Shown here one piece after another: positions 20,358 through 39,390 of a DNA stretch of 64,000 bases (the stretch's first letter is position 1; every line of letters starts with the position of its first letter). The stretch is taken from contig NZ_JAOVZU010000007.1 of NCBI RefSeq assembly GCF_025717005.1, forward strand, positions 62,001-126,000. The letters are read 5' to 3'. A program made the translations under genes and the position numbers. The notes beneath the pieces are model-generated. The model was not told where the DNA came from. It made no database searches and saw only the letters and a program-made list of their open reading frames with translations. This DNA is from Actinotalea endophytica (GTDB lineage: Bacteria; Actinomycetota; Actinomycetes; Actinomycetales; Cellulomonadaceae).

Positions 20358-20358
20358 C

Positions 20359-22131: not shown

Positions 22132-22574
22132 TGGACGCCTACCACCCGCAACCGTCGGCCCGCGCGACGGGCGCCGACCCGAGCTTCATCGGGCGCGGCT
22201 TCAGCTGGCCGCTCGAGGTCGACCACCGCGGCGCCATCCGGCTCACCGAGGGCAGCGAGGAGCTCGACCGCGCGATCCGGGTGATCCTGCTCACCGCACC
22301 CGGCGAGCGCCTGATGCGCCCGCAGTTCGGCTGCCGGATCTGGGACCTGCTGTTCGAACCCGTCACCCCGAACCTGCTCGGCCTGATCTCCCAGGCGGTC
22401 CGCGACGCCCTCGCCCAGTGGGAGCCGCGCGTCGAGGTCGAGGACGTCCGGCCCGTGCAGGACAACGACGACAGCGCCCTGGTCCGGATCGCGATCCGCT
22501 ACCGGGTCAAGACGACCAACGACCGCCGCAACCTCGTCTACCCGTTCTACGTGATCCCCCGCGAGGAGACCTGA
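22131..22574 (+). CDS. gp25-like baseplate wedge protein
   Basis: 147 residues, with TGATG overlap from the spike gene. The gp25/GPW family is clear: GRGFSWPLEVDHRGAIRLTE, then RVILLTAPGERLMRPQFGCR and IWDLLFEP. gp25-like proteins nucleate the sheath on the baseplate. It overlaps the baseplate J gene by one base (TGATG), consistent with wedge proteins being made in balance. Confidence 0.94.
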   Translation: MDAYHPQPSARATGADPSFIGRGFSWPLEVDHRGAIRLTEGSEELDRAIRVILLTAPGERLMRPQFGCRIWDLLFEPVTPNLLGLISQAVRDALAQWEPRVEVEDVRPVQDNDDSALVRIAIRYRVKTTNDRRNLVYPFYVIPREET

Positions 22575-24520
22575 TGCCGATCCCTCCTCCGAACCTGGAC
22601 GACCGGTCCTTCCAGGACATCGTCGACGAGACCAAGCGCCTCATCCCGCGGTTCACGCCCGAGTGGACCAACCACAACGTCTCCGACCCCGGCGTCGCGC
22701 TGATCGAGCTCTTCGCCTGGATGAGCGAGATGGTGCTGTTCCGGGTGAACCAGGTGCCCGAGCGGCTCTACGTGCACTTCCTCAACCTCGCCGGGATCGA
22801 GCCGTTCCCGCCGTCGGTCGCGCACACCGACGTGACGTTCTGGCTCTCGGCTCCCCCGGAGCGACCCGTGGTGATCCCGCTGGGCACCGAGGTGACCACG
22901 TCGACGAGCGCGACCGACGCGGTCGTCTTCTCCACCGTGCGGGAGGCCGTGGCAGCCACGCCCCGGCTGACCGCCGCGCACTCCAGCCGCGCCCGTGACG
23001 AGCAGACCGTCGACGGCCGGGAGGACCTCGCCTATCCCGGGAGCGCCTTCACCTGCTTCGGCTCGACCCCGGTGCAGCCCGGCGACGCGGCGTACCTCGG
23101 GTTCGACGGCTCCCTCGCCGGCATGGCCCTGCAGCTGAGCGTCGAGGCGACCGCGCAGGGGATCGGTGTCGACCCGTTGAATCCTCCGCTCGCCTGGGAG
23201 GTCTGGACGGGTGAGGCCTGGACCGCGGTCCGCGTGCAGTCCGACACGACTGGCGGCCTCAACCGGAACGGCGAGATCGTGCTGCTGGTGCCCGACTCGC
23301 ACGCGTCGCTCATGCTCGCCGGCACGGTCGCGTACTGGCTGCGCGTGCGCCTGCTCCGACCGGCGCCCGGGCAGCCCACCTACCAGGCCTCGCCCCGGCT
23401 CGAGAGCATCCGCCCGGCCGTGGTCGGCCTGACCGTTCCGGCCGAGCACGCGCGACGGCTCGGGGCGGAGAACCTCGGCCGGTCGACCGGTGTCCCCGCG
23501 CAGGAGTTCAAGGTCGGGTCGGTGCCGGTCGCGGCCCGGCGCGACGGCGAGGTCGTGCGCACCGTGACCCCGACCGGGTCGACCGAGTGGACCGAGGTCG
23601 AGGACTTCTCCGCCTCGGGCCCCGGCGACCACCACGTGGTGTGGGAGTCGGCCACCGGCGTCGTGCGGTTCGGGCCGCGCGTGCGCTACCCGGACGGCAC
23701 GGTTCGCCAGCACGGCGCGATCCCGCCCGACGGCGCGGTGGTGCAGGTCAGCGGCTACCGCTCCGGTGGCGGGGCGGCAGGCAACGTGGGCGCCCGGACG
23801 CTGACCGCGCTGCGCTCGACGCTGCCGTTCGTCGCGAGCGTCGTCAACGAGCTGCCCGCGTCGGGTGGCGTGGACGCCGAGACGGTCGCGGAGGCCAAGG
23901 TCCGCGGTCCGCTCTCGTTGCGCACCGGCGAGCGCGCCGTGACGCCCGGGGACTTCGAGCGGCTCACCCGCGAGGCCTCCGTCGAGGTGGCCCGGGCCCG
24001 CTGCCTGCCCGGGACCGAGACGTCCAACGGTGCCGTCCGGGTGCTCGTGGTCCCGCACGTCCGGACCGGGCCCGAGGCCCACACGATCGACGACTACGCA
24101 CTGTCCGCTCCGCTGATGCGGACCATCCGCGACGTGCTCGAGGAGCGGCGCTGCGTGGGTGTGGGGGTCGAGGTCGGGACGCCGTTCTACCAGGGCGTGA
24201 GCGCAGCCGTCCTGGTGCGCGCACTGCCCGGCCGCCCGGCTGCACTCGTCCGGCAGCGCGTGATGAGCGAGGTCGACCGCTATGTGAACCCGCTGACCGG
24301 CGGTCCGGCCGGCACCGGCTGGCCGTTCGACACCGACCTGACCGCGGCCGAGCTGGCCCAGCTGATCGAAGCCGTCGAGGGCGTCGAGCGGGTCGAGGAG
24401 GTCCAGCTGTTCGCGTACGACCTGCGCAACCGGCGTCGGCTGGGCAGCGGGCAGGACTTCCTGCACCCCGAGCCGCACACGCTGTTCCTGTCGGCCGAGC
24501 ACCGGGTGGTCGTCCGATGA
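22574..24520 (+). CDS. Baseplate J/gp6-like wedge protein (Afp11/12-like)
   Basis: 648 residues from ATG 22574. Baseplate J-type landmarks include the N-terminal VSDPGVALIELFAWMSEMVLFRVNQVPERLY and the later RTGERAVTPGDFERLTREAS plus GVGVEVGTPFYQGVSAAV. It forms the main wedge ring that holds the baseplate together and triggers contraction. Only one such gene is seen, where many eCIS loci have two (Afp11 and Afp12). It may combine both roles, or the second may be the next gene. A 49-bp gap with no gene separates it from the tail protein I gene. Confidence 0.92.
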   Translation: MPIPPPNLDDRSFQDIVDETKRLIPRFTPEWTNHNVSDPGVALIELFAWMSEMVLFRVNQVPERLYVHFLNLAGIEPFPPSVAHTDVTFWLSAPPERPVVIPLGTEVTTSTSATDAVVFSTVREAVAATPRLTAAHSSRARDEQTVDGREDLAYPGSAFTCFGSTPVQPGDAAYLGFDGSLAGMALQLSVEATAQGIGVDPLNPPLAWEVWTGEAWTAVRVQSDTTGGLNRNGEIVLLVPDSHASLMLAGTVAYWLRVRLLRPAPGQPTYQASPRLESIRPAVVGLTVPAEHARRLGAENLGRSTGVPAQEFKVGSVPVAARRDGEVVRTVTPTGSTEWTEVEDFSASGPGDHHVVWESATGVVRFGPRVRYPDGTVRQHGAIPPDGAVVQVSGYRSGGGAAGNVGARTLTALRSTLPFVASVVNELPASGGVDAETVAEAKVRGPLSLRTGERAVTPGDFERLTREASVEVARARCLPGTETSNGAVRVLVVPHVRTGPEAHTIDDYALSAPLMRTIRDVLEERRCVGVGVEVGTPFYQGVSAAVLVRALPGRPAALVRQRVMSEVDRYVNPLTGGPAGTGWPFDTDLTAAELAQLIEAVEGVERVEEVQLFAYDLRNRRRLGSGQDFLHPEPHTLFLSAEHRVVVR

Positions 24521-24569: not shown

Positions 24570-25109
24570 ATGAGCCGCGACCAGTGGCTGCTCAACCAGC
24601 TCCCGGTCGGGATGCTGGGCGACGACTTCTTCACGCGGTTCGTGTCGATCTTCCAGGCCGAGGCAGGCACGCTCACCGCGCATGCCGACAACCTCCCGCA
24701 CCTGGCGGACCCGACGCTCACGCCGCCGGCGATGCTGCGCTGGCTCGCGACCTGGATCGGGACCACGAGCATCGATCCCGACCTGCCCGAGGAGACCCAG
24801 CGACGCCTGGTCACGACCGCGTCGCGAACCCTCGCCCGGCGCGGCACGCTGGGGTCGCTGGAGGTCGTCCTCGGACTGTTCTCCGGCGGGCCGGCGTTCG
24901 TCGAGGACGGCGGCGGCGTCTGGGGCGAGGGCGAGGCCCCGCCCGACCACGCGTGGGTCGTCATGCGGGTCGAGTCCACCGGGACCCTGTCGGACGCGGA
25001 CTTCGTGACGCTGGTCGCGGACCACATCCCGGCCCACGTCCGGGCCGAGCTGTGGGTGGGCGACCGGCAGATCTGGCCGCAGCCCACCGTGGGGGTCCGC
25101 CATGACTGA
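24570..25109 (+). CDS. Phage tail protein I-like (P2 gpI-type) baseplate protein
   Basis: 179 residues, ATG with GGGGGTC upstream. It resembles the P2 gpI family in order and motif: MLRWLATWIGTTSIDPDLPE, ETQRRLVTTASRTLARRGTL, GSLEVVLGLF, and a C-terminal DHIPAHVRAELWV. These proteins sit on the periphery of the baseplate and in phages connect to tail fibres. No fibre gene follows; instead an 8-bp overlap leads into the zinc-ribbon membrane protein, which suggests the wedge may contact that protein. Confidence 0.88.
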   Translation: MSRDQWLLNQLPVGMLGDDFFTRFVSIFQAEAGTLTAHADNLPHLADPTLTPPAMLRWLATWIGTTSIDPDLPEETQRRLVTTASRTLARRGTLGSLEVVLGLFSGGPAFVEDGGGVWGEGEAPPDHAWVVMRVESTGTLSDADFVTLVADHIPAHVRAELWVGDRQIWPQPTVGVRHD

Positions 25110-25674
25110 GACCGACCCCTGGTCGAGCGGCCCGGTCGGACCTGGACCCGCCGCTCCGGTTCCCCGGCACAGCGCGTTCGCCCCGGAGCGTCCCGCGGCG
25201 GCCGACCCGTCGGTGTCGTCGGGGTCGGACGAGACGACGATCGTCTGCCCCGAGTGCGGCACGCCGACGGTGGTGGACCTGTCCCGGCGCGACTCCGACG
25301 ACTTCTGCCCGCGCTGCGACTACCCGCTGTTCTGGGCCCGTCCACGCGACCGCTCCGAGGCGCCGCCGGAGGACACCGACGGCTACCTGCGCCGGGCCCC
25401 CGGAGCGTCCGGGAACACGTTGACCGCGACCATGCCGTGCCCGGAGTGCGGTGAGCTGAACGACCCGACCGCCGACGTCTGCGTGCGGTGCGGGGCCGAC
25501 ATGAACCCGGCCCCGCCGCCCGAGCCGGAGCCGCTCCCGGTGCCCGAGCCGGCGGTCATCGTGCTGCCGGAGCCGATCCGCGAGGCCGACCCGCCGCAGC
25601 CGTTCCCGTGGTGGTGGTTCGCGGCGATGGCTGCGCTCGCCGCGACCGCGTGGCTGATCGGCGCACTCTGGTGA
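25102..25674 (+). CDS. Tail-anchored double zinc-ribbon protein, last gene of the eCIS structural operon
   Basis: 190 residues, ATG overlapping the tail protein I gene by 8 bp. Two four-cysteine zinc ribbons are visible, CPEC...CPRC (Cys 49, 52 and about 69, 72) and CPEC...CVRC (about 113, 116, 127, 130). A Pro/Glu linker and a single C-terminal transmembrane helix (PWWWFAAMAALAATAWLIGA, about 168-189) follow. No signal peptide exists, so the ribbons should face the cytoplasm and the last residues the membrane. Placed where fibre genes usually lie, it is a candidate adaptor holding the baseplate to the inner face of the cell membrane. That role is inference. Confidence 0.85.
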   Translation: MTETDPWSSGPVGPGPAAPVPRHSAFAPERPAAADPSVSSGSDETTIVCPECGTPTVVDLSRRDSDDFCPRCDYPLFWARPRDRSEAPPEDTDGYLRRAPGASGNTLTATMPCPECGELNDPTADVCVRCGADMNPAPPPEPEPLPVPEPAVIVLPEPIREADPPQPFPWWWFAAMAALAATAWLIGALW

Positions 25675-25762: not shown

Positions 25763-28700
25763 TCAGCCTCCGGCCGCGGTCACGGTCACGGTCACGGCAC
25801 TGCTCGTCGAGCCGGCGAGCGTGCTCGTCGCCCCGTACTCCGCGGTCAGGCTCACCGTGCCCGCCGACCAGGTCGACGTGGTCGTGCCCGGGACGGTGAG
25901 CGTGGCCGTGCCGCCGCTGACCGTCCCCGTGCCCAGGGTCGTCGCACCTGCCCTGAACGTCACGGTGCCGCTGTCGACCGTCCCGGAGGTCCTGGTGACC
26001 GTCGCGGTCAGCACGATCGCGGTCGACGTCCCCGCCGTGAACGTCGAGGTGTCCGAGGCGAGCACCGTCGCGGTCGCGAACCGGACGGTGACCGTCACGG
26101 CGCTCGAGGTCGAGCCGGCGAACGTCGTCGTCCCGTTGAACGTCGCGGTGAACGACGTCGTGCCCCCCGTCCAGGCCGAGGTGTCCGGCGTGAGCGTCGC
26201 GGTCCGGGTGCCACCGGTACCGGTGAGCGTCACGTCGCCCGGGATGGGCGTGCCGTCACGCGAGAAGGTCACCGTGCCGCCGTTGAGGCCCGACGCCCCG
26301 CCCGAGCCCGGGCTGACCGTCGCGGTCAGCGTCAGCGCGTCACCGGGCGAGATCGTGGTCGCGCTCGCCGCGAGTGTGGTCGTCGTCCCGACCTTGGACA
26401 GGGTGAAGGCGGCGGTCACCTCGGTCACCGAGGCGGTCGAGGTGCTCACCGTCACCGAGCTCGGCGAGGCCTGCCAGCCGGAGACGCTCGGGGTCACCGC
26501 GTAGCTGCTCGTCCGGTCGACGTAGACCACCTCGGCGCCGGTGTCGATGCCGGCGGTCCCCGAGTAGACCGTCGTCCCCGAGTCGTTCCCGCTGCTGCGG
26601 GTCACGGTGAACGGCATCGACGGCGCGTCCGCCGCACTCGACGTCGCGGTCACCCGGATCCGCATCTCCGAGACCGTGATCGCGGCGGTCGTCGCGGTGT
26701 CCGAGACCGCGGCGGTGAACGTGCCGACGTGCCCGGCCGGCCCGGAGGCGCTCGCCGTCCAGGCTCCCGGCGGGACCTGGTTGAACGTCGTCGCGAACGT
26801 GGTCTGGCCGGTGCGCACCACCGGTTGCGCCGCCAGGGAGAGCCCGCCGCCGTCCGGCGCGAGGGTCACCAGGGCGCCGGTCAGGTCGAATCCCTGGGCC
26901 GAGGTGAGGGTCACCGTGACCTGGCGCGCGACCGTGTAGAGCACGACGTCCGCGGTGAACTGCTGGCCGCCGCTCAGGGTGATCGTGCGACTGCTCGACC
27001 CGTAGCCGTCGGCGGTGAACACGATCGTGTACTGCCCGTCCGCGATCCCGGTGAGCGAGAACGCGCCGGAGGTCGTCGTGGTGCTCGCGACCGGGTCGGT
27101 GCCGGCGGGGGACGACCACAGCTCCACGGTCGCGCCGTCGAGCGGGACCGCGGCTGCCGCTCCGGCCTGCCCGGACACCGTCCCGCTGACCGTGTTGGAC
27201 CGCGCCGCGATCGGCAGGGTCAGCAGGGTCGGCTCACCGGCGGCGACCGTGATGTTCACCGTGAGCGGCGCGAACCCGCCGCCCGCGATCGCCAGCGTGT
27301 ACGTCCCGGGGGCGACCGAGGTGAACACGTACTGGCCGCCGGTGGGCGTGGTGGGGCAGGACGTCGTCACCGCGGTGCAGTCGATCTCCCTCGTGCCGTC
27401 CGGGCCGATCAGGGAGACACGCAGCGCGTTCACGGCGGTCGACGTCGCGTCGTCCGGGTCGTACACGGTGATCGTGAGGTTCTGCGGGTCGGCCTTGAGG
27501 GTCAGGTTCGTCGTGGACGTCTGCCCCTCGGTGACCGCCACCGACACCGACGACGACCCGTCGAGGAAGCTGTAGCCGGCCGCCACGACCGACACCGCCC
27601 AGGTGCCGGCGTTGAGGCCCTGCGTCGTGGTGGTGCCCGTGATGCGGTACGCGCCCGTGGCGTCGGTGGTCGCGCGCAGCGTCACGCTGCCCATGGTCGC
27701 CTGGACCGTCACCCCGGAGAGAGTGCTCGTGATGCCGCTGGACCGCTGGACCGACACCGTGCCGGAGATCTCGCCGAGCTTGACCACCGTCACCGGGATG
27801 GGGGTGCTCTGACCCGCAGCGACCGTGACCGAGAACGTGTCGAACCGATAGCCCGCCGCCTGGACGCTCACCTGGTAGGTGCCGCTCGCCATCTGGCCGA
27901 AGGCGACCCGGTTGGTGCCGGGGACGGCCGCGGTGGTGATGTTCCCGGACGCCGGCCGGATCAGGGTGACCACCGGGTCGGGTACGGGTGTGGCGCCGGC
28001 ACCCGTGACCACCTCCACGGTGAGGTCGCCGAACCGCGGCAGGTCGAAGGTGACCGCCGGGAGCGCGGCGGGGAGCACCGGGATGGTGAAGGTCAGCACC
28101 TGCGAGTCGAAGCCCGCCAGCGACGCACGGACCCGGTAGGTGCCCGGCCGCGCCATCGTCGCCCCGGTGGTCGACGGGTCGGAGGGCTGGGACAGGTCGG
28201 TCCAGACGAGCTGTGCGGCGCCACCCCCGGTCGCGACGGCGCTGAGGCCCGCGTTGCTCGCGCCGGGCGGTGCCTGCTCGACCACGAACGTGGTGGACGC
28301 GATCTCCGCGGCGGTCGGTGCGGGTGCGCCGGTGTAGGTGATGGTCCCGCTGAACGGGCGCCCGGTGGGCTCGAGCACGAGCGGGGCCGCCAGGTCCGAG
28401 ATGGGGATGTTGGTCCGCACGAGGGTCCGGTACGGCGCCGTGCCCGCGAAGGGGTACGTCACCGACACCGTAACCTGGTCGGTGACCAGCGGCAGGTAGA
28501 CCGTGGAGGCGTCCACGACGTCGGCCAGGCTGGCCACCACCTGGAACTCGCCGTTCGCGTTCGTGATCGCCGTCGCCGAGGAGGTCACCGGGACCAGGCC
28601 CGAGTAGCCGGTGACACCGGTGAGCTGGACGGCGGCGGACCCCACGGGGGTGAACGCCGTCGCGGTGAGCTGGGTCACGACCGTGCCGCCGAACGCGGCG

Positions 28701-31700
28701 CGCGCGCGGGTGAGCACCACCTGGGTCGTGAGCTCCTGGTTCGTCCCGACCGTGAGCTCGGCGGACGACGCCGTGAGCTCCACCGCCGGGCTCCCGGTGG
28801 TCCAGGAGACGTCGAACCGGTAGGTCCCGGCGGGCAGGTGCGTCACGACCACCTGTCCGGACGCACCGGTCGTCCACGGGGTCGTGGGCGGCGTGAACGC
28901 CCCCGGCGAGAGACGCACCGGTGTGACGACGGCGCCGGACGCGGGAAGCAGCGACGACGAACCGTCGTCGGACAGCACGCTCACCGCGACCCTCGCCTGC
29001 CGGTCGAGGGTGGCGTCGTAGCGCCGCACGTCCCCGGGGGTCAGCACGATCGCGACCGGCGCGACCGGAAGGTACTCGTCGTCGCCCGGTTGCACGGAGA
29101 CGTCGAACTGCCCGCTCCCGAGCCGCTCGAGCGCGTAGGAGCCGTCGGTCGCGGTACCGGCGCACTGGGCGGGATCGCCGATCACGCAGGTGGGGTCGCC
29201 GGCGGCGTCGGTCCCGACGGTGCACGGCCCGGGCGACCCGGTCGACCCGGTCGGCCAGGCGATCACGCACGTGCCGGCCGGCACGGCACCGACCCGGGTG
29301 AGGATCGTGCCGACCACGGAGGGCGACGGGTACAGCGCGACCTGGGCCGCCTCGACGGTCTGGTCCATCGGGACCCGCACCGAGACGGTCCCGGGTTCGT
29401 AGCCCGGCACGGAGATCGTCAGGACGTACAGGCCGGGCAGCAGACCCTCGTCGCCCGGTCCGGGGATCACGTACTCGAGGTCGGGAGCCGAGGTCACGCT
29501 GATGTTCCGGGTGCTGCCGTCCGCGCCCGGTGCCGTCATGGTCACCGTGATCTCGCAGGTCTCGGTCGGCGCGAGGTTGGTGCAGGTGATCTGGCCGTTG
29601 GTCCGCGCGTCGGAGACCCGGCCCCGGATCACCGAGGTCGACAGCAGGCCGGACCCGGGGATCGGAGTCATCTCCAGGTCTGCCGTCGAGACCTTCCCGG
29701 CGGTCACGGTGACCGGTGCGTACGCGTCCACGTGGCCGAACAGCTCGCTGGACAGCACGTACGACCCGGGGGCGATCCCGTTGAACCGGAACGTCCCGGA
29801 CGCGTCGGACGTGCTCATCGTCTTGTAGGTGTTCTCGCCGTCGGTGAGGGTCAGGCCGGCGCCGCCGAGACCCTTGCCCGAAGGGTTCTTGACGGTGCCC
29901 TGCACCACACCGGTGGACAGCCCCAGCCGGATGTCGAGGCGGGCCGCAGCCCGGCCGGTGCCGAGCGTGATGGTCGTGGTCTGCGACGCGTAGCCCGCGC
30001 CGCTGACCGTGACCGTGTAGGTCGACGGCACCGGCAGGTCGGCGAGCACGAACGCGCCGACCTGCCCGGAGGTGACGCTCGACGCGGTGCGGGTGGTGGT
30101 GCCGTCGGTCGCGGTGATGGTCAGGCCGCCGAGCCCGGCGATCGCGCCGAGCGCGTCCGGCCCGGTCACCGTGCCGGCGAGGGACGCGACGCCGTGGGTC
30201 AGCGGGAGGTTCACGACGGCCGACCCGCCCGCGTCGAGCGGCACCAGCCGGGACTGCGCGCCGTAGCCCGTCCCCGCCACGGTCACCAGGTACGTGCTCG
30301 GCGTCGACAGCCCGTCGACCGACCACGAGCCGACGTCGCCCTCGGTCGCGGTGCTCGTCGTGACGACGTTCGTGCCGTCGGTGATGGTGATGCTCGCCCC
30401 GCCGATCGCGCCGCCGGGACCGGTGATCCGCCCGGACATCTGCCCCGCGCCGGCGACCATGGCGATCTTCAGCGGCGTCGCGGCCGCGGCCGCCCCGCTC
30501 ATCTCGAACCGCTGCGTCTGGAACCCGGGCTTGGAGACCGTGATGAGGTAGTTGGTCTGCGGCGACATCCCCGCGACCGCCCACGTCCCGTCGTCGAGCG
30601 AGGACGTGGTGCGCGCCGGGTCGGCGACCGCGGTGCGCTGCAGCGCGAGCGCGGACGCCGACACCTTCCCGGTGGCCGCGCCGCCGCCGCCGTCACCGGT
30701 GACCAGTGCCGCGCCCGCGATGCTCGCCGCGTCCCCGACCGTCGCGGACGTCTGCGAGACCAGCTGGCCGGCCGGGACGATCTCGACCTGGAAGCCGGAC
30801 GGGTCGGCCGCGGTGATCACGCCACCGATCCGCACCTCCTCACCGGTGCCGCCCGCGGTGCTGCCGGAGCCGCCGCCCGAGCCGGACGGACCACCCGAGC
30901 CGCCGGCTCCCCCGGCGTCCGAGCCGCCCGAGCCATCGGCCGAGCCGCCCGAACCGTCGCCCGTGCCGGAGCCGGACTGGGTGCCGGCCACCACGTCGGC
31001 CTGACCGGCCCGGTGCGAGAGCCACGGCACCACGAACGCGATCGCGGTCGCCCACAGCGCCACCGCGGTGAGCATCGCGAGGGCCTTGAGGATCCCGGAG
31101 GAGAGCACGGGCCGCGCCGTCAGCACGCCGTGGAAGCTCGCCGGCGCCCGGTCGCCGTGCGCCAGGACCGAGTACGGGCTCCGGTCGCGCGCACCGACGA
31201 CGCGCGGGTGGGCCACGGTGATCCGCGCGGGCATCCGGACGGTGGCGTGCGGCGGCACCGTGACGACCTGGGAGGTCAGCTCGACCCGCAGCTCGGAGTT
31301 CGCGGTGCTGTCCAGCAGCAGGTCCGCCGGCGTCTCGCCGGCGTTGCTGAGCACGACGGTCACGTCCTTGCCGAAGACCGCGGTCACCTCCGCGGGCTCG
31401 ACGCCGAGGACCACGGAGCTCGGCGCGTCGACGGTCAGGGACGTGTCGACCACGGTGACCGGCGCGCCGGCGCCGCCCGGCCCCTGGCCCTGCACGGCGA
31501 ACGCGAAGGCGTAGACCCCCGGCACGGCTCCGCGCGCGATGCTGACCGCGAGCTCGAACGTGACGGTGACGTCCGCCGGGACCGCCTCGGCGCGGCCGTG
31601 CTGCGCCGTCCAGGCGCCGTCGAGGCCGATCGCGGCGACGGTGATGTCCTGCGGTCCGTCGGTCAGGTTGCGCACGTGGACCCGCACGAGGGCGTCCCTG

Positions 31701-31771
31701 CCGGAGGGCGCGTGCGCGCCGGGCTCGACCGCCACGCTGACGGTCGGTCTGCCCGGGGTCGGTGCGCTCAT
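25763..31771 (-). CDS. Giant single-pass membrane protein with carboxypeptidase-regulatory-like repeats (2002 aa)
   Basis: Starts at ATG 31771, 14 bp after the preceding gene. Two N-terminal Ig-like domains (to about residue 215) have no signal peptide. A short ARPVLSSGILKAL motif and one transmembrane helix (about 226-251) follow, then a Gly/Ser linker (about 260-313). About sixteen carboxypeptidase D regulatory-like beta modules come next (typical end PGTYTLAIAGGGFAPLTVNI), and two Ig-like modules close the chain (about 1790-2002). Several paired cysteines in the repeats (near 727-736, 833-870, 1464-1471) suit an oxidising location. Predicted topology is N-in, C-out. No peptidase catalytic domain is present. 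It is the third of three paralogues after the cap gene, and a candidate docking or sensing stalk for the injection system. Confidence 0.85.
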   Translation of the reverse strand: MSAPTPGRPTVSVAVEPGAHAPSGRDALVRVHVRNLTDGPQDITVAAIGLDGAWTAQHGRAEAVPADVTVTFELAVSIARGAVPGVYAFAFAVQGQGPGGAGAPVTVVDTSLTVDAPSSVVLGVEPAEVTAVFGKDVTVVLSNAGETPADLLLDSTANSELRVELTSQVVTVPPHATVRMPARITVAHPRVVGARDRSPYSVLAHGDRAPASFHGVLTARPVLSSGILKALAMLTAVALWATAIAFVVPWLSHRAGQADVVAGTQSGSGTGDGSGGSADGSGGSDAGGAGGSGGPSGSGGGSGSTAGGTGEEVRIGGVITAADPSGFQVEIVPAGQLVSQTSATVGDAASIAGAALVTGDGGGGAATGKVSASALALQRTAVADPARTTSSLDDGTWAVAGMSPQTNYLITVSKPGFQTQRFEMSGAAAAATPLKIAMVAGAGQMSGRITGPGGAIGGASITITDGTNVVTTSTATEGDVGSWSVDGLSTPSTYLVTVAGTGYGAQSRLVPLDAGGSAVVNLPLTHGVASLAGTVTGPDALGAIAGLGGLTITATDGTTTRTASSVTSGQVGAFVLADLPVPSTYTVTVSGAGYASQTTTITLGTGRAAARLDIRLGLSTGVVQGTVKNPSGKGLGGAGLTLTDGENTYKTMSTSDASGTFRFNGIAPGSYVLSSELFGHVDAYAPVTVTAGKVSTADLEMTPIPGSGLLSTSVIRGRVSDARTNGQITCTNLAPTETCEITVTMTAPGADGSTRNISVTSAPDLEYVIPGPGDEGLLPGLYVLTISVPGYEPGTVSVRVPMDQTVEAAQVALYPSPSVVGTILTRVGAVPAGTCVIAWPTGSTGSPGPCTVGTDAAGDPTCVIGDPAQCAGTATDGSYALERLGSGQFDVSVQPGDDEYLPVAPVAIVLTPGDVRRYDATLDRQARVAVSVLSDDGSSSLLPASGAVVTPVRLSPGAFTPPTTPWTTGASGQVVVTHLPAGTYRFDVSWTTGSPAVELTASSAELTVGTNQELTTQVVLTRARAAFGGTVVTQLTATAFTPVGSAAVQLTGVTGYSGLVPVTSSATAITNANGEFQVVASLADVVDASTVYLPLVTDQVTVSVTYPFAGTAPYRTLVRTNIPISDLAAPLVLEPTGRPFSGTITYTGAPAPTAAEIASTTFVVEQAPPGASNAGLSAVATGGGAAQLVWTDLSQPSDPSTTGATMARPGTYRVRASLAGFDSQVLTFTIPVLPAALPAVTFDLPRFGDLTVEVVTGAGATPVPDPVVTLIRPASGNITTAAVPGTNRVAFGQMASGTYQVSVQAAGYRFDTFSVTVAAGQSTPIPVTVVKLGEISGTVSVQRSSGITSTLSGVTVQATMGSVTLRATTDATGAYRITGTTTTQGLNAGTWAVSVVAAGYSFLDGSSSVSVAVTEGQTSTTNLTLKADPQNLTITVYDPDDATSTAVNALRVSLIGPDGTREIDCTAVTTSCPTTPTGGQYVFTSVAPGTYTLAIAGGGFAPLTVNITVAAGEPTLLTLPIAARSNTVSGTVSGQAGAAAAVPLDGATVELWSSPAGTDPVASTTTTSGAFSLTGIADGQYTIVFTADGYGSSSRTITLSGGQQFTADVVLYTVARQVTVTLTSAQGFDLTGALVTLAPDGGGLSLAAQPVVRTGQTTFATTFNQVPPGAWTASASGPAGHVGTFTAAVSDTATTAAITVSEMRIRVTATSSAADAPSMPFTVTRSSGNDSGTTVYSGTAGIDTGAEVVYVDRTSSYAVTPSVSGWQASPSSVTVSTSTASVTEVTAAFTLSKVGTTTTLAASATTISPGDALTLTATVSPGSGGASGLNGGTVTFSRDGTPIPGDVTLTGTGGTRTATLTPDTSAWTGGTTSFTATFNGTTTFAGSTSSAVTVTVRFATATVLASDTSTFTAGTSTAIVLTATVTRTSGTVDSGTVTFRAGATTLGTGTVSGGTATLTVPGTTTSTWSAGTVSLTAEYGATSTLAGSTSSAVTVTVTAAGG

Positions 31772-31785
31772 CGGGTGGTCACCTC

Positions 31786-34362
31786 TCACGGCCCTGGGAT
31801 CGTGATGTCGAGTGCGAGCTGCTGGCTCGGGTTGAGCGTGGTCGGCGCGGACGTCGCGACGGCGGCCCCGTTCACCGAGAGCTTGACCTCCAGCAGGTAG
31901 AACTCCGGCGCGTCCACGTCGGCGAACGAGTAGCGCCCGGAGGTGTTGGTCACCGCCGTCGCGACCGGCGGGGCCTCGGTGCCGTACTCCGACGCGAGGT
32001 ACAGCGAGACCACGGCGCCGACGGTGGGGACCCCCGCCTGGTCCACCACGCCGCCGATCGACGCGGGTGAGACGAGCACCGGGTTGATGGTGCGGACCTG
32101 GCCGGCCACGAGCCGGACGATCATCGACGTCGGCCGGGTCCCCTTGCGGCTGAACGTCACGGTGTAGGTCCCCGGCGGGAGCCCCTGGATCGTGAAGGCC
32201 CCGACCGAGCCCGCGGGGGTGGACGCCGAGGTCATGGTGAACTGCGCCTGCCCCGAGCTCGCGGAGATCGTCACGTTGCCGGCCGGGGTCGCGGTGCCGC
32301 CGCCCGCCGGGCTCTGGGTCACGGTGCCCACGATCTGCGCGGTCGCGCGCCGCATCGTCACGTCCACCGAGGACGCGTCCGCAGCGCCGGCGGTGACCTG
32401 ACCGAACCCGTCGATGCTGACCGACAGCACCTGCGACTGCAGGTCGCCGCGGGAGAACGTCACGGTGTAGGTGCTCGGGATCCGCAACCCGGACACCGCC
32501 CACGACCCGACCGGCGACCGGCTCTGGGTCACGGTCTGCCGGGTGTCGGCGCCGTCGGTGATGGTGACGGTCACACCCCCTGTGCCGTCCGGCGTGGTCA
32601 CCGTGCCGGAGAGCGTCCCGGCGGCCGCGCCGAGCGTGACGGCGACCCCGGTGAGCTCCTGGGCGGGACCGAGGTTGAGGCTGAGCGTCGCCGGGGCGTA
32701 CCCGTCGGCACCGATCACCACGGTGAACGTGCCCGGCGTGGGCAGGCCACGCAGCGTGAACGCGCCCGGCGTGTCCTCGGTGAGCGTGACGGTCCGCACC
32801 GACACCTGACCGAAGGTCGCGACCACGGTCGCGCCGGTGATCGGCCCGGACGCGCCGGTCACCGTGCCGGAGATCACGCCGTCGCCCTCGAGGAGCGGCA
32901 CCTCGATGTCGGAGCGGTTCTCCCCGGCGGCGACGTCGATGCGTTGCACCTGGGTGCTGTAGCCGGACTTCGTCGTCACGAGGTCGTACACCGCGGGCGA
33001 CGGCACCTGGGTGAGGTCGAACGAGCCGTCCGCGCCGACCGGGACGGTGCGCACGACGGCGCCGGAGGTGGGCGCCGGGGCCTCACCGGGCACCGGGCTG
33101 ACCGTCCCGGCGAGGGGCGGCACGTCGAGCGGCAGCTCGAGGCGCACGACCGCACCCGAGGGGTCGGTGCCGGTGACCGTGCCCGAGACCGTCGCCGGGA
33201 CCCCGCCGACGAACACGTTCAGGTCGCTGACCGCCTGACCGGCCGCGAGGGTGACGAGCTCGGCGTCCGCCTCGGTCGGCGACGACGGGTACCAGACCTC
33301 GGCGAACCCGGCGGCCCGGAACCGCAGCTTGTACGACCCCGCCGGCAGCGAGCCCACCGAGAACGCGCCGCTGTCGTCGGTCGCCGTGGTCGCCACGGGC
33401 GCCGTGGTGTCCGACTCGTCGAACGCGTCGACCGAGACGCCCACGACCCCCTCGCCGGTGGACAGCAGGCGGACCTGCCCGCCGACCGACGAGGTCCCTG
33501 TGGTCGTCGACTGCTCGCGGGCCTGGACCACCTGGATCGCGAGGTCGCGGTCGGCGGCGGAGCGCTGCACGACGCCGCTCAGCGCGAGCGTGATGACGAT
33601 CGCGAAGATGGTCACCGCGAGGAGCAGGCCGAGCAGCGCGAGCAGCCCGCGGCCGAGCACGGGCTTCTGGACGAAGGCCCCCATCGCCGCGGGCGGTCCG
33701 TCCTGCGGGGACACGGCGGGCTCCGCGGTGCCGCCCGGGGCGACCAGCGTGCTCCAGTTCGCGGGAGCCTGCGGCGGTCGCTCCTCGACCCGCAGCTCGA
33801 ACGGTCTCGGCTCGGGCGACCCGGTGAACCTGCGCTTGGCGGACGTGGTCAGCTCGAGGTACGTCTGCTCGCCCGGGCTCAGGTGCAGCTCGGGCGGCTC
33901 GAAGACGAACGTGATCGCCCGCTCCGCGTCGCTGCCGACCAGCGCGCCGTCGAGCGTCGTGTTGCCGCTGTTGACGACGGTCGCCCCGAAGACCGCCCGC
34001 TTGCCGCCGGTCACGATGGACGGCTCGAGGCGGACCTCGACGCTCGGAGCGCCCGGGATGTCGACGACCAGCTCCTCGACGGTGGTGCGGCGCTCGCCGG
34101 TCAGCTCGCGGACCTGCACGGCGATCCGCCGCTCGCCGGCCGGGACGTCGGCCGGGAGGTCCAGCGTCACCTGCACCGACGTGGTCTCACCGGGGAAGAG
34201 GGTCGGCTCGGGGTCGTCCACCCGGACCCAGGCCGGGTCGACGCCGAGGCAGCGCACCGCGTAGCCGCTGATCAGGTCCTCGGTGTTGGTGATCGTCACC
34301 GAGACGGTGGTCGGGCCGCCGACGACGGCGGCCACGTGGCGCGGGGCGAGGTCGAGGCGCAT
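31786..34362 (-). CDS. Single-pass membrane protein with carboxypeptidase-regulatory-like repeats (858 aa), paralogue 2
   Basis: ATG 34362 follows the previous stop by one base, and its ribosome site (GGGAGG) lies inside the end of that gene. It has the same architecture as its neighbours: two Ig-like domains without a signal peptide (about 1-205), a linker, QKPVLGRGLLALLG before a transmembrane helix (about 237-264), then about six regulatory-like beta modules (for example GSLPAGSYKLRFRAAGFAEV). Basic residues precede the helix, so the Ig part should be cytoplasmic and the repeats external. It is tightly coupled to the first paralogue, so the products are probably made together and may form one assembly. 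Confidence 0.85.
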   Translation of the reverse strand: MRLDLAPRHVAAVVGGPTTVSVTITNTEDLISGYAVRCLGVDPAWVRVDDPEPTLFPGETTSVQVTLDLPADVPAGERRIAVQVRELTGERRTTVEELVVDIPGAPSVEVRLEPSIVTGGKRAVFGATVVNSGNTTLDGALVGSDAERAITFVFEPPELHLSPGEQTYLELTTSAKRRFTGSPEPRPFELRVEERPPQAPANWSTLVAPGGTAEPAVSPQDGPPAAMGAFVQKPVLGRGLLALLGLLLAVTIFAIVITLALSGVVQRSAADRDLAIQVVQAREQSTTTGTSSVGGQVRLLSTGEGVVGVSVDAFDESDTTAPVATTATDDSGAFSVGSLPAGSYKLRFRAAGFAEVWYPSSPTEADAELVTLAAGQAVSDLNVFVGGVPATVSGTVTGTDPSGAVVRLELPLDVPPLAGTVSPVPGEAPAPTSGAVVRTVPVGADGSFDLTQVPSPAVYDLVTTKSGYSTQVQRIDVAAGENRSDIEVPLLEGDGVISGTVTGASGPITGATVVATFGQVSVRTVTLTEDTPGAFTLRGLPTPGTFTVVIGADGYAPATLSLNLGPAQELTGVAVTLGAAAGTLSGTVTTPDGTGGVTVTITDGADTRQTVTQSRSPVGSWAVSGLRIPSTYTVTFSRGDLQSQVLSVSIDGFGQVTAGAADASSVDVTMRRATAQIVGTVTQSPAGGGTATPAGNVTISASSGQAQFTMTSASTPAGSVGAFTIQGLPPGTYTVTFSRKGTRPTSMIVRLVAGQVRTINPVLVSPASIGGVVDQAGVPTVGAVVSLYLASEYGTEAPPVATAVTNTSGRYSFADVDAPEFYLLEVKLSVNGAAVATSAPTTLNPSQQLALDITIPGP

Positions 34363-34363
34363 C

Positions 34364-36622
34364 TCAGCCTCCCGCCGGCAGGGTGAGGTCCTGCGTGACG
34401 GTCGACCCGGCGGTCACGGTCACGACGGCCGTCGCGACGACCCGCCCGCCGGAGGACAGCGTCACGGAGTACGAGCCGGGCGGCAGCTGGGCGAACGAGT
34501 AGAAGCCGCTCGGGCTGCCGGCGACGGCGGTCGACGTGGTGGTCCAGATCTTCTGGCCGTCGGTGGCCTGCACCTGCACGCCGGCGGTCCCGGTCGGCGG
34601 GCTCCCGGTGCGGACGACGCCCTGCACGGTGCCCCAGGAGGGACGCAGCGTCACCGTCACCGCGGACGCGATCCCGCTGCTGAGGTCGACGGCGACGCTC
34701 TGGTCGGTGTACCCGGGCAGCGACACCATCAGCGTGTACAGGCCCGGCTGCAGACCGGCGAGGGTGAAGGACCCGACCGTGCCGGTGGTCAGCGAGGTGC
34801 CGGTGACCGGGCTCGCACCGCCGGTCGCCGTCACGGTCACGCCACCGAGACCTGCGCCGTCCGGTCCGACGATCCGGCCGGTCACGGTGCCGGCCCCACC
34901 GGTCATCGTGACCGCGACGTCGGTCTTCGACTCCCCGGCGGCGAGGTCGACCACCGCCGTCGCGGGCGTGAAGCCGTCGGCGGTGAACGTCACGACGTAC
35001 GTGCCCGGCGTCGGCAGCCCCGGGATGACGAACGTGCCGACCGAGCCGAGCGTCGGCGTCCCCACCACGATCGGCGTGCCGTCGACGGTCGTGCTGACCA
35101 CGACGCCGCCGAGCGGCCGGCTGCCGTCGGTCACGAGCCCGGAGATCTGCCCTGCCCCGGACGCGAGCGTCACGGTGGGCGCGAACCGGGTCTGCCCGCC
35201 CGTGACCGTCTCGGTGACCGTGGTCGGCTGGTAGCCGGGCGCGGTGAAGCTGAGCTCGTAGGTACCGGGGGCGACCACGTCGGTCAGCGTGTAGGTGCCG
35301 TCCGGTGCGGCGTCGACCGTGCGGGTGAGCGTGGGGTCGTCCCGCGCCCAGGTCGCCCGCGCCACCACGGTGGTGACGACCGGGGTCGTGACGTCGCCGA
35401 CGTCGACCGTCCCGTTGATCACGGCCGGGTCGCCCTCGATCGTCAGGTCCACGCCGTCGGTGACGCTCTGCGACGTGGCGTCCACGGTCGTCGCACCGGC
35501 GTCACCCGGTGCTGCCGGGTACCAGACGGTCTGGTAGCCGTCCGCCCGCACGCTGACCAGGTACGGGCCGGGGAACAGCCCGGCGATCGCGTAGCTGCCG
35601 TCCTCCTGGGTCGCCGCCGAGCCGACCAGCACGAGCCCCGAGGTCGTCCGGCGCCAGGCCTCGACCGTGATCCGGCCGACACCCTGCGCGTCGCTGGCCG
35701 CGGTGACCGTGCCGGCGAGGGTGCCGCCGACACCGGCCGGCAGGGCCCCGTCCCTCGGGACCGCCCCCGCCGGGGCCGCGGCCGCGGCGCCGCCCGCTGC
35801 GGTACCCGTGCCGGCGCCGGTCCCCGCACCGGCCCCGGTGCCCGTCACGACCGTGGCGGCGAAGTAGGACGGCGGGGCGATCTTGGTGTACGGGTCGGCG
35901 CCGAGCACCGTTCGGACGCCGAGCAGGAAGATCGCCGCCCAGACGGCGAGGATCGTGGCCAGCACCAGGGCGGTGAGCAACCCGGGGCTGAGCGCGGGCC
36001 GCTGGCGCAGCACGAGCGCCACCGTCTCGGTCTGCTCCAGCGCGGTCGCCTCGACCTGCAGCGGGCGCTCCCGCTCCGAGCCGACCAGGTGCCTGGGGCC
36101 CTGGACCTGCACGGCGACCGATGCCACGGCACCCGGCTGCAGGCTCACCGTGGACGGCGACAGGGCGACCTGGAGGCTGCGGTCGGCGTCGTTGGCGCGC
36201 AGTGCGACGTCGAGCGGGACGTTCCCACGGTTGCTGACCTGGACCGGGAACGTCGCGCGCCGTCGGGCACGGACCGTGCTCGGCGACGCGGCGAGCGCGA
36301 GCGCGGGCCGTGCCCCGACCACCACGTCGACGTCGTGGTGCACCGCCTCCGTCGCCCCGGACCGGCCGCTCAGCTGCACGGTGATCGGGTGCGTCCCGGC
36401 CGGGAAGCTGCTCGGCAGGTCGAGCCGGACCACGAGCTGCCCGGTGGCGTCCGGGAAGAGCGTGAGCACCGGCGGGCGGGAGGTGGCGTGCTCGATGGGA
36501 AGACCGACGACGTGCGCGCTGATCGCGTCGATCACCGCGCCGGTGTTCACCACGTCCAGCGAGATCTCGCCGGTCCCTCCTGGTGCGACCTCGAGCGTGT
36601 CGACGCCGCTGATCACGCGCAT
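34364..36622 (-). CDS. Single-pass membrane protein with carboxypeptidase-regulatory-like repeats (752 aa), paralogue 1
   Basis: Starts at ATG 36622, 5 bp after the DUF4255 stop; a longer open frame upstream would run through that gene. Two Ig-like domains (about 1-190) are followed by RQRPALSPGLLTAL, a transmembrane helix (about 211-235), an Ala/Gly-rich linker and five to six regulatory-like modules (IAGLFPGPYLVSVRADGYQT, LAGLQPGLYTLMVSLPGYTD). No catalytic residues are seen. Because it is translationally linked to the cap protein gene, it belongs to the injection-system operon and not to a peptidase pathway. Confidence 0.85.
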   Translation of the reverse strand: MRVISGVDTLEVAPGGTGEISLDVVNTGAVIDAISAHVVGLPIEHATSRPPVLTLFPDATGQLVVRLDLPSSFPAGTHPITVQLSGRSGATEAVHHDVDVVVGARPALALAASPSTVRARRRATFPVQVSNRGNVPLDVALRANDADRSLQVALSPSTVSLQPGAVASVAVQVQGPRHLVGSERERPLQVEATALEQTETVALVLRQRPALSPGLLTALVLATILAVWAAIFLLGVRTVLGADPYTKIAPPSYFAATVVTGTGAGAGTGAGTGTAAGGAAAAAPAGAVPRDGALPAGVGGTLAGTVTAASDAQGVGRITVEAWRRTTSGLVLVGSAATQEDGSYAIAGLFPGPYLVSVRADGYQTVWYPAAPGDAGATTVDATSQSVTDGVDLTIEGDPAVINGTVDVGDVTTPVVTTVVARATWARDDPTLTRTVDAAPDGTYTLTDVVAPGTYELSFTAPGYQPTTVTETVTGGQTRFAPTVTLASGAGQISGLVTDGSRPLGGVVVSTTVDGTPIVVGTPTLGSVGTFVIPGLPTPGTYVVTFTADGFTPATAVVDLAAGESKTDVAVTMTGGAGTVTGRIVGPDGAGLGGVTVTATGGASPVTGTSLTTGTVGSFTLAGLQPGLYTLMVSLPGYTDQSVAVDLSSGIASAVTVTLRPSWGTVQGVVRTGSPPTGTAGVQVQATDGQKIWTTTSTAVAGSPSGFYSFAQLPPGSYSVTLSSGGRVVATAVVTVTAGSTVTQDLTLPAGG

Positions 36623-36627: not shown

Positions 36628-37197
36628 CTACGCCCCGTCGTGGGACATGGGCGAGGCGCTCCCGGCCACCTCGGTGACGGCGGGCGGGGCGACCTCCCAC
36701 GGGTAGGCGTCGGCGGCGACCGTGACCAGCAGCCGGAAGGACGCCTTGAGGCTGCCGCCGAGCGCCGTCCACAGGTCGCGCGGCCGGTTCGTGTCGTCCG
36801 GGGCGAGGGCGATCTGCACGCTCGACGCGAGCGAGGCCCCGACGTGCTCGGGCGGCAGCGACTGCTGCGTCAGCAGACGGACGAGGACGTCGCCCAGCAG
36901 CTGGTGCTCGTCGCGCACGCTCCCGGCCCACGCACTGACCAGGTAGGACAGCTGCACCATCGGCAGCGGCACACGCCGTTCGACCTTGCCGTCCGCGCCG
37001 ACCCGCGTGGCGGCGGGCCGCGGTGGCATCGGGCTGCGCGACACGTCGTACAGGTAGCAGCTCACCGTGATCCGGTTGACCTGCGCGGCCCAGGTGGACG
37101 ACGGCGCCTCGAAGGAGACGTCACCGACCTCGGGAGGCAGCGGCAGCGTCGCCCGCAGGTAGCTCTCCAGCGCGTCCTCGACGGCAGGGATCAGGAT
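36628..37197 (-). CDS. DUF4255 (Pvc16/Afp16-like) tube-sheath terminator or cap protein, apparent non-ATG start
   Basis: The DUF4255 family caps the distal end of eCIS tubes. Conserved segments are SYLRATLPLPPEVGDVSFEA, PSSTWAAQVNRITVSCYLYD and VQLSYLVSAWAG. The frame has no ATG, GTG or TTG between the upstream in-frame TGA (37320-37318) and a GTG at 37065, and starting at 37065 would delete about 44 conserved residues. The best start is ATC 37197 or CTG 37194, six to nine bases after an AAGGGAG site. The product would be 189 or 188 residues. A sequencing error is the other explanation. It heads the minus-strand operon with the three membrane paralogues. Confidence 0.82.
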   Translation of the reverse strand: MLIPAVEDALESYLRATLPLPPEVGDVSFEAPSSTWAAQVNRITVSCYLYDVSRSPMPPRPAATRVGADGKVERRVPLPMVQLSYLVSAWAGSVRDEHQLLGDVLVRLLTQQSLPPEHVGASLASSVQIALAPDDTNRPRDLWTALGGSLKASFRLLVTVAADAYPWEVAPPAVTEVAGSASPMSHDGA

Positions 37198-37434: not shown

Positions 37435-39390
37435 GTGCGCGAGCGGCTGGTCGGCCTGGTCAAGGCGGTGCAGGTGGGGGCGGAGCGCCGGCAGGGCGCC
37501 GACCCGATCACGCGCGCCCGCCTCGACGCCGTGCTCGGCGTCCTGGCCGAGGAGCACGTCGGGCACGACCCCGCGGCGCAGGACCGGATGGCCGGGCTGG
37601 CGGACGTGTTCGACCTCGACCCGCAGGCCGTGGACCTGCTGACGGTCGCCGCGGCACCCGACCTCGACCCGAACATCGCCCTGGCCTTCGGGCTGCTGCG
37701 CGGTGGCACCGCACCCGCCCGGGCCTCGGTCGGGCTCGCGCTCGAGCTGGTCGGGCTGCCGACCGCGTCCGGAGCCGGGCACGAGCACCTCGGCGCCGGG
37801 GCGCCGTTGCGCCGGCACGGGCTCGCCGAGCTGGCCCCCGGGCCGTGGCTCGCCAGGGACCTGTGGGTGCCCGACCGGGTGCTCGCCCACCTGGTCGGCG
37901 TGGACCGGATCGACCCGGCACTCGCGCCGGTCGTCGTCGACCCGGTGCCGCTGCCGGAGCTGGACCCGGACGGCTTCGTGGCGGCGGCCGTCGAAGCGGG
38001 GGCGCCACTGGTCTGGATCCGCTCACCGCTCGGCGCGGGTGGCCTCTCGCTCGCCGCGGGCGCGCTGGCTGCCGCCGGGGTCGGCTGCCTCGCGATCGAC
38101 CTGGCCCGGGTGCCGCCCGGAACGCCGCCCGGGCCGCTCGTGGCCCAGGCGCTGCTCGAGGCGGCGCTGCGCGGCGCAGGCGTCGTGGTGGTGCACGCCG
38201 AACGCGTCGCCGAGGGCGATCCGGCCGTGCTGTTCACGGCGCTCGCCGAGTCCGTCGTCCCGGTGCTGGCCGTGGGCGAGAAGCCCTGGCAGCCCGCCTG
38301 GCTGCCGTTCCACCCGCTCGTGGTCGAGGCACCGGCCGTCACGACGGCCCACCGCAGGGCGGTCTGGGACGACCTGCTCGGCGCCGAGGTGGCCGACCAC
38401 GACCTGTCGACGCTCCGGCTCGCACCGGAGTCGATCGCCGATGCTGCGCGGTACGCGACCACCCAGGCCCTCGTCGCCGGCACGGAGGTCTCGTCGGAGG
38501 CGGCGCGGGCCGCGGCGCGCCGGGTCGCCGGGTCCATGACCTCCGGCCCGGCGCAGGCACCGCGGCGCGCGCCGTCGTTCGACGACCTGGTCCTGCCCGA
38601 CCACGCCGCAGCGACCCTGCGGCGCCTGGTGTCCTGGGCGAGCCACCGTGAGGAGGTGCTCGCCGACGGCCGCCTCGTGGACGTCGGCGGCAAGGGGACC
38701 GGCCTCGCGGCGCTGTTCAGCGGGAGCCCCGGCACCGGCAAGACCCTCGCCGCGCACGTCGTCGCCGCCGAGCTGGGGCTGGACCTGTTCCGGGTGGACC
38801 TCGCCTCGATCGTGGACAAGTACATCGGGGAGACCGAGAAGAACCTCGAGCGCGTGTTCCACGAGGCCGAGAGCCTGCACGTGCTGCTCTTCTTCGACGA
38901 GGCGGACGCCCTGTTCGGCAAGCGGTCCGACGTCAAGGACGCCCACGACCGCTACGCGAACCAGGAGGTCGCCTACCTCCTGCAGCGGATGGAGAGCTTC
39001 GACGGGATCACCGTCCTGGCGACCAACCTGCACGGCAACCTCGACCCGGCCTTCAGCCGGCGGATGAGCTTCATCGTCCACTTCCCCGACCCGGACGAGG
39101 CGACCCGTCGACAGCTCTGGCAGGCCCACCTGGACCGGGTCGGGACCGACCCGGCCGACCCCGTGGACGTGGCGCACCTGGCCCGCCAGGTCGAGCTCGC
39201 CGGCGGCGACATCCGCAACATCGTGCTGGCCGCCGCGTACGACGCGATCGCGGCCGGCGAGGTCGTCGGCATGCGCCACGTCCTGGCCGCGCTGGTCGCG
39301 GAGTTCCAGAAGCTCGGGCGACGCGTCCCGGTGGACGGCTTCGCACCGAGCGGCACCCCTTCGGAGAGGAAGTCCGACGATGGCAGCTGA
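37435..39390 (+). CDS. eCIS AAA+ ATPase (Afp15-like)
   Basis: 651 residues from GTG 37435, preceded by GGGAGG; open frame upstream would cross the operator. A helical N-terminal half with a degenerate ATPase-like domain (WIRSPLGAGGLSLAAG, about 200-330) leads to a canonical AAA+ module. Walker A GSPGTGKT is at residues 430-437 and Walker B LLFFDEAD at 484-491, with a sensor-1 asparagine in LATNLHGNLD and an arginine finger candidate in FSRRMSF. The family resembles Cdc48-type ATPases and is thought to help tube/sheath assembly or cargo loading in eCIS. It overlaps the DUF4157 gene by 11 bp, tying it to the cargo. Confidence 0.93.
   Translation: MRERLVGLVKAVQVGAERRQGADPITRARLDAVLGVLAEEHVGHDPAAQDRMAGLADVFDLDPQAVDLLTVAAAPDLDPNIALAFGLLRGGTAPARASVGLALELVGLPTASGAGHEHLGAGAPLRRHGLAELAPGPWLARDLWVPDRVLAHLVGVDRIDPALAPVVVDPVPLPELDPDGFVAAAVEAGAPLVWIRSPLGAGGLSLAAGALAAAGVGCLAIDLARVPPGTPPGPLVAQALLEAALRGAGVVVVHAERVAEGDPAVLFTALAESVVPVLAVGEKPWQPAWLPFHPLVVEAPAVTTAHRRAVWDDLLGAEVADHDLSTLRLAPESIADAARYATTQALVAGTEVSSEAARAAARRVAGSMTSGPAQAPRRAPSFDDLVLPDHAAATLRRLVSWASHREEVLADGRLVDVGGKGTGLAALFSGSPGTGKTLAAHVVAAELGLDLFRVDLASIVDKYIGETEKNLERVFHEAESLHVLLFFDEADALFGKRSDVKDAHDRYANQEVAYLLQRMESFDGITVLATNLHGNLDPAFSRRMSFIVHFPDPDEATRRQLWQAHLDRVGTDPADPVDVAHLARQVELAGGDIRNIVLAAAYDAIAAGEVVGMRHVLAALVAEFQKLGRRVPVDGFAPSGTPSERKSDDGS

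Follow-up and report, generated by a model that had tools for sequence, protein, structure and literature searches.

Three tandem, long-stalked Sco4256-type proteins beside the cap gene of an Actinotalea contractile injection system as candidates for a membrane platform

Here, we describe three tandem genes, A, B and C, that follow the cap gene of an extracellular contractile injection system (eCIS) in Actinotalea endophytica. They lie in a 64,000-nucleotide stretch of a 4.25 Mb genome (assembly GCF_025717005.1, contig NZ_JAOVZU010000007.1, positions 62,001 to 126,000), which we call the window (73.7% GC) and from whose first letter all coordinates are counted. The run starts with the cap gene (36628-37197, minus strand; Pvc16_N, PF14065, 189 aa with an ATC start, the start being presumed), which a sequence-only reading of this DNA had correctly called DUF4255, and continues on the same strand with gene A (34364-36622, 752 aa), gene B (31786-34362, 858 aa) and gene C (25763-31771, 2002 aa). 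The gaps calculated from these coordinates are 5, 1 and 14 bp, and positions, strand, sizes and spacing are all as that reading had given them. The cap-A-B-C run converges on a plus-strand eCIS run of sheath, two tube proteins, a CIS_tube protein with LysM, VgrG-like spike, gp25, Baseplate_J and Tail_P2_I, identified with Pfam and by comparison with the PDB; an AAA ATPase and a DUF4157 protein are situated beyond it.

The three proteins share one plan. An N-terminal module of about 200 aa (N-module; residues 1-207 in A) leads to a juxtamembrane motif of the form (K/R)P(V/A)L(S/G)xG(L/I)L, which occurs once in each protein as previously proposed (RPALSPGLL at residue 208 in A, KPVLGRGLL at 233 in B, RPVLSSGIL at 220 in C). 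The hydropathy maximum of each protein stands directly behind this motif, in a predicted transmembrane (TM) helix at about residues 214-236 of A, 239-262 of B and 227-250 of C (35915-35983, 33577-33648 and 31022-31093, respectively, minus strand, computed from the residue numbers). The outer parts carry CarboxypepD_reg (PF13620) stretches by Pfam, five in A, six in B and nine in C, in line with the carboxypeptidase-regulatory-like repeats noticed before; in C a Gly/Ser-rich linker precedes a long outer region with eight cysteines and, close to its end, two Big_3_5 stretches. Pfam finds no peptidase catalytic domain in A, B or C, which upholds the view that they are not peptidases. The best PDB match of the gene B profile is NOMO2 (2.6e-14), followed by SdrD and a transthyretin-like protein, all chains of prealbumin-like domains, a likeness limited to the stalk. 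Pfam content and eCIS linkage together make a plain adhesin or peptidase unlikely.

Among 17 N-modules compared with Pfam, 10 match FixG_C, 8 Cep192_D3 and 6 NPCBM_assoc, and a 17-row N-module profile gives weak matches to Ig domains in the PDB (best 2.1e-4, a sialidase); the profile of A found no significant match among solved structures (best E 0.12), and no N-module profile matched 7b5h or another fibre in the PDB. The N-module is probably immunoglobulin (Ig)-like, a signal that is weak by sequence and consistent across matches. The sequence-only reading had seen an Ig-like pair without signal peptide: the Ig part is consistent at this strength, and reading of the N-termini, with no signal-peptide predictor run, revealed no hydrophobic leader. 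Its view of the three as paralogues holds fully, as their N-modules are mutually homologous (hhalign 99.9-100% over 242-243 columns).

Profiles of N-module plus helix also align with a set of seven Streptomyces-type N-modules (hhalign 99.6% for A, 99.7% for B and 99.4% for C, over 218-234 columns). Genes of this Streptomyces type are placed between the sheath and the AAA/cap genes in genomes G237 and G448, ricin-tailed members occur among them in a profile scan, and they share with SCO4256 the RefSeq naming as hydrolase or hydrolytic protein; the gene adjoining an eCIS on named plasmids is called 'hydrolase' in S. clavuligerus and 'hydrolytic protein' in Streptomyces sp. NBC_01324. Sco4256-4258 have been published as effectors associated with a contractile injection system (CIS) (PMC10066040, PMC10020575). 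According to Casu et al., 47 of 94 CIS-positive Streptomyces encode one or more homologues (PMC10066040), and 90% of 105 class IId clusters of Streptomyces are reported to hold relatives of Sco4256, whose first domain resembles pilus chaperones and whose C-terminal domain is variable and often absent (PMC10020575). Like A, B and C, these proteins have a conserved N-terminal domain, one TM helix and a variable C-terminus, and they come as tandem copies within an eCIS cluster. A, B and C are thus probably of the same kind, a link made by position, plan, RefSeq name and published description rather than through the Sco4256 sequence itself, and the earlier description of an 'undescribed' module is not supported. 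They differ in having a long repeat stalk instead of a ricin or other small domain, in being a fixed set of three paralogues and in usually standing behind the cap gene, and their clusters differ in holding a CisA-like protein without outer domain. Since the C-terminal domain of the published family is variable and often absent, the missing small or ricin-like C-terminus marks A, B and C as a variant; what is new is the subclass, a fixed set of three distinct, long-stalked paralogues of a known kind. Other relatives come from clusters with one or two short N-module genes (short-type). In one of these, L100, an N-module protein (12925-15231) follows Tail_P2_I and has PASTA domains in its later part, and in the second cluster of genome G002 an N-module protein of 271 aa has almost no outer part.

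Triplets were sought with two short peptide patterns from six B-type modules in the contigs of 84,980 species, a scan that is not a census. It yielded 34 named loci in Actinotalea, Cellulomonas, Sanguibacter, Nocardioides, Jiangella, Phytoactinopolyspora, Nakamurella, Rarobacter and others. The A-B-C order is complete in 29 of them and the remaining five are truncated by contig borders; a cap gene is visible in 30, in some on the opposite strand, and the triplet is accompanied by eCIS genes wherever the contig is long enough to tell. Six further triplets are found in distant members of the phylum (G117, G165, G174, G254, G261 and G356), and the gene run Tail_P2_I, CisA-like, cap, A, B, C is present in G117, G174, G254 and G261. 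One locus, L102, in a record titled Proteobacteria and from the same assembly series as L101, is very like that of the window (67% identity in the B module) and is perhaps a mis-binned contig.

In a FastTree phylogeny of 156 modules, which contains some long branches, A (40 rows), B (43) and C (38) each occupy one side of one branch, with Shimodaira-Hasegawa-like support of 97, 95 and 83, and eight Streptomyces-type rows, one from Streptomyces sp. NBC_01471, make up a separate group (support 100). Rows were chosen by hand (33 of the 34 named and nine other triplet-type loci, 25 short-type loci, eight non-eCIS loci and the window), leaving out L103, a copy of L030, and modules below 80 bits; rows and loci are related by descent, and p-values are not to be taken at face value. 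From the conserved order and the one-branch grouping, the A-B-C set looks as if it tripled long ago and was kept as three different parts.

The tie to eCIS proposed from the window is also seen across genomes. The N-module of A was found in 10 of 59 genomes (the window's included), all 10 among the 12 that are Pvc16_N-positive. In a phylum sample of 396 genomes, which includes the window's, the 17-row profile matches in 53 and reaches at least 100 bits in 33, the 20 below 100 bits not being counted as members; 28 of the 33 strong genomes carry the Pvc16 cap gene, which is present in 34 genomes of the sample, as do all seven triplet genomes (the window's included). The five strong genomes without Pvc16 hold a separate single-gene N-module group, and no A-B-C triplet was seen in them. 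In the four loci of this group that were read (L090, L091, L093 and L095), the single N-module gene neighbours, judging from translations, a beta-propeller-like protein of 811-833 aa and apparent heme-biosynthesis genes. For two relatives with several helices (G056 and G048), the 20-kb stretch around each contains nothing that matches the eCIS genes of the window.

Charge and cysteine content were used to judge topology. The net charge is higher before the helix than after it in 32 of 32 A, 35 of 35 B and 22 of 29 C proteins, and over 158 modules it is higher before the helix in 134, equal in 11 and lower in 13. A single helix with the N-terminus inside and the C-terminus outside, as the sequence-only reading had it, is borne out as far as the helix behind the motif and the charge bias go; the orientation is a prediction, and gene C contributes the exceptions weighed below. 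The outer region of C has an even number of cysteines (8, 10, 12, 14, 18, 20 or 22) in 21 of 22 proteins uncut by the locus end, the sole odd one being a broken 385-aa frame, and most A and B have none. The whole family was counted on the 158 modules left after removing rows identical over the first 200 residues, where intact means off the locus end and includes some broken frames; among the 69 uncut members with any outer cysteine, 64 are even and five odd (L065, L104, L116 and two in L117). Cytosolic eCIS proteins of the same loci divide into 7 even and 6 odd for sheath, 13 and 14 for AAA, 7 and 5 for Baseplate_J and 3 and 9 for gp25, and other patterns are seen for PAAR (2 even, 20 odd) and Pvc16 (1 even, 13 odd, 31 with none). 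The cysteine numbers of C step by two, as disulfides formed outside the cytoplasm would give, and the mostly even pattern suggests that the outer parts fold there. Even cysteines fit a membrane protein of the producer and also a protein that is thrown out and then folded.

Conservation was measured on the window and named loci with length filters of 700-900 (A), 800-1000 (B) and 1800-2200 aa (C), which account in part for the small length spread. Identity to the window is 0.52 in the outer part and 0.48 in the N-module of A, and 0.54 and 0.46 in B, with the helix above both (0.60 in A, 0.74 in B). Judged from these values by themselves, A and B look more like fixed parts than like rapidly evolving toxins or fibres.

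The slot after Tail_P2_I, which we regard as the usual place of tail fibres or CisA, holds a CisA-like gene (25102-25674, plus strand, 190 aa) directly after Tail_P2_I, whose product combines two zinc ribbons with a hydrophobic stretch at its C-terminus (hydropathy 1.64, lowest in the CisA-like set) and, by length, lacks the outer C-terminal domain (F5/8 type) of CisA. In S. coelicolor, CisA (Sco4242) follows the baseplate genes and is required for firing (PMC12237407), and it has a Cys-rich stretch ahead of its helix (PMC10020575). CisA-like genes were collected by similarity to the window's gene on the triplet side and by a cysteine-plus-helix pattern on the short-type side. Behind the helix, 0-24 residues remain in 20 triplet loci (window included), versus 154-187 in all 13 CisA-like proteins found in short-type clusters, of whose outer domains two were checked against profile libraries and the others judged by length. 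The CisA-like protein of L072 also has 0-24 residues after its helix, at a locus that is cut by the contig end with no triplet visible, and in short-type L100, which has Tail_P2_I, no CisA-like gene was found. The two sets of profiles align at 97.4% (hhalign) over 26 columns, a single zinc ribbon, so their common descent rests on position and plan too. CisA resembles A, B and C in being bitopic and N-in/C-out (predicted for A, B and C) and in its membrane role (proposed for A, B and C), whereas A, B and C have an Ig-like instead of a disordered N-part, have no zinc ribbons before the helix and do not follow Tail_P2_I. Zinc ribbons and position are both found in 25102-25674, which is the stronger docking candidate. 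A, B and C are not the sole candidates, because this slot holds a CisA-like zinc-ribbon membrane protein, and for the same reason the idea that the cluster has no other docking candidate was dropped.

On balance, and with a confidence just above even, we read A, B and C as a platform or sensor in the producer's membrane, at which the cytoplasmic particle docks or is licensed. They would be old, distinct Sco4256-type paralogues anchored in the membrane of the producing cell, the Ig-like module facing the cytoplasm and the repeat stalk facing outwards, and together with the CisA-like protein may form a shared platform for docking or for the licence to fire; the outer stalks could do the sensing or anchoring for which CisA's outer domain may serve in the other clusters. 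As CisA's outer domain is missing in these clusters, a shared platform with stalks taking over is the simplest reading, and the examined loci offer a natural contrast, in that the CisA-like outer domain is missing where three long-stalked paralogues are present. In its favour stand the eCIS linkage, the fixed A-B-C order, the tree grouping, the mostly even outer cysteines, the shortened CisA-like protein and the conservation of A and B. In addition, SCO4256 is listed in an S. coelicolor glycoproteome table under the class membrane (PMC6593405), and some short-type relatives have outer domains of kinds that bind cell wall or sugars (ricin, ChW, PASTA). The subclass bears on two questions: how the free-floating injection systems of actinobacteria come into contact with a membrane, and whether proteins of the Sco4256 type are the ammunition or belong to the gun mount. 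Comparable cases of a contractile machine docked to a membrane are the trans-envelope complex of the type VI secretion system (T6SS) and the thylakoid-anchored CIS (cf. PMC12237407), to which no sequence relation is claimed.

Several results weigh against a platform. The charge bias of gene C is equal in three and reversed in four of the 29 proteins. Gene C is less conserved throughout (0.39 in the outer part, 0.38 in the module, 0.31 in the helix) and varies in length over the phylum, with open frames of 2738 (G165), 3284 (G261) and 3919 aa (G174). Outer cysteines may also pair after ejection, and three of eight short-type or non-eCIS N-module proteins scanned have no known outer domain. The five strong genomes without Pvc16 have no sheath match either, so N-module relatives are used outside eCIS too, and for the plasmid copies of Streptomyces sp. 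NBC_01471 and S. cadmiisoli no eCIS is annotated within the stretch shown. A docking or sensing role also competes with the published cargo role: in the sco4256-4258 triple mutant about 85% of lumens are empty, compared to about 97% filled in the wild type, stress death is lost, and the proteins reduce the viability of E. coli (PMC10066040), while in the work of Vladimirov et al. 2023 purified particles contained Sco4256 (PMC10020575).

These published findings, joined by the homology of N-module and helix to Streptomyces-type proteins, make the case for the main rival, which is less probable than the platform but, with experiments in S. coelicolor directly behind it, still carries considerable weight. 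In this reading A, B and C are effectors, packed into the tube and shot into the membrane when the machine fires, helix and outer domain then killing or permeabilising the cell. The toxicity in E. coli is indecisive, because full-length CisA is toxic there as well (PMC12237407), and the glycoproteome entry of SCO4256 suggests export in the producer. Mostly even outer cysteines also speak against cargo, although they could pair after ejection, and by suggesting folding outside the cytoplasm they open the published effector label to a direct test. In S. lividans the particle reportedly packages another protein, Sle1 (PMC13277306), and the window's cluster has its own effector candidate in the DUF4157 (eCIS_core) protein (39380-41551, plus strand, by Pfam), possibly of zinc-protease type with a HESMH stretch visible in the sequence, and the more conventional one.

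Beyond the platform reading, and unlikely in our estimate, A, B and C could be a wall-crossing complex of monoderm bacteria, with a fixed membrane seat for a cytoplasmic CIS and rods of graded length as path or gauge through the wall. They would then play the part of the T6SS membrane complex with unrelated components, and firing would be aimed outward instead of suicidal.

That the three are particle-borne tail fibres acting after release by lysis is very improbable. Their repeat stalks resemble adhesin shafts such as SdrD, and in a 2026 catalogue of eCIS fibres, Ig-like and carboxypeptidase-regulatory domains go with the eBAP4 group, which has an N-terminus resembling the tCIS crown (7b5h); a bulky-shafted member from Cellulomonas, possibly one of these genes, is shown there (PMC12923769). 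However, eBAP4 loci are said there to be without Tail_P2_I, which the window has, and the N-module profiles find no 7b5h match in the PDB; A, B and C are also placed after the cap gene and not after Tail_P2_I, and have a hydrophobic helix behind the N-module. No DUF6519 (eBAP5) match appears anywhere in the genome of the window at E values up to 1, and Pfam on the main genes shows no tail-fibre gene, so the absence of such a gene claimed by the sequence-only reading holds within these two tests, with eBAP1-4 anchors outside them. A literature search found no paper that joins eCIS with CarboxypepD_reg, 'hydrolytic protein' or Actinotalea, apart from the carboxypeptidase-regulatory domains named in fibres by PMC12923769, and 'contractile injection system' and 'carboxypeptidase regulatory-like' occur together in no paper among the matches listed. 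A role as surface adhesins or wall fasteners of a general sort, with nothing but the operon in common with the eCIS, is no more probable than fibres, as related single-gene proteins in genomes without eCIS are outweighed by the strong cap-gene association, the conserved cap-A-B-C run and the co-change with the CisA-like protein.

The plus-strand run that completes the cluster begins with the sheath (13501-15069, start approximate), with top PDB matches 8bky (same sequence in 9gtp) and 8bl4 (in 9gts). It continues with tube proteins 1 and 2 (15110-15589 and 16268-16741, both Phage_T4_gp19), CIS_tube with LysM (19701-20357), the VgrG-like spike (20323-22131, an open frame with its true start unsettled), gp25 (22131-22574), Baseplate_J (22574-24520, start taken from relatives) and Tail_P2_I (24570-25109), the assignments of tube proteins, CIS_tube, gp25 and Tail_P2_I coming from Pfam. 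Baseplate_J matches 9gtp_1K, an entry from the S. coelicolor CIS paper, with 528 bits. Between the second tube gene and the LysM tube gene, and overlapping both at its ends, lies a Pro/Ala/Arg-rich, apparently disordered protein of 987 aa (16738-19701, plus strand), for which a Pfam scan gave no match.

Two frequent companions of the triplet type lie on the minus strand of the window, a PAAR/DUF4280 gene (41974-42363, Pfam) and a gene with a Septum_form domain (42395-43228, true start within the open reading frame), in which LAGC is a possible lipobox. Each is found in 23 of 45 triplet-classed loci (22 places, L030 and L103 being one), in some immediately before the cap gene on the same strand, and a crude lipobox pattern fits 18 of the 23 Septum_form proteins. 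Outside the triplet-classed loci, at the same threshold, PAAR has no match and Septum_form two weak ones (L066 and L068), of which L066 belongs to the triplet genome G165.

A large LuxR-type (GerE) protein adjoins the sheath (10591-13341, minus strand; AAA_16 match below cut-off) and is a possible regulator of the cluster. Where the cap gene is expected to start, none of ATG, GTG and TTG is present, and an ATC (37195-37197, minus strand) stands behind AAGGGAG. The start codon is ATG or GTG in eight of the 10 relatives printed and ATC in the window, L101 and L102, which suggests a rare ATC start codon.

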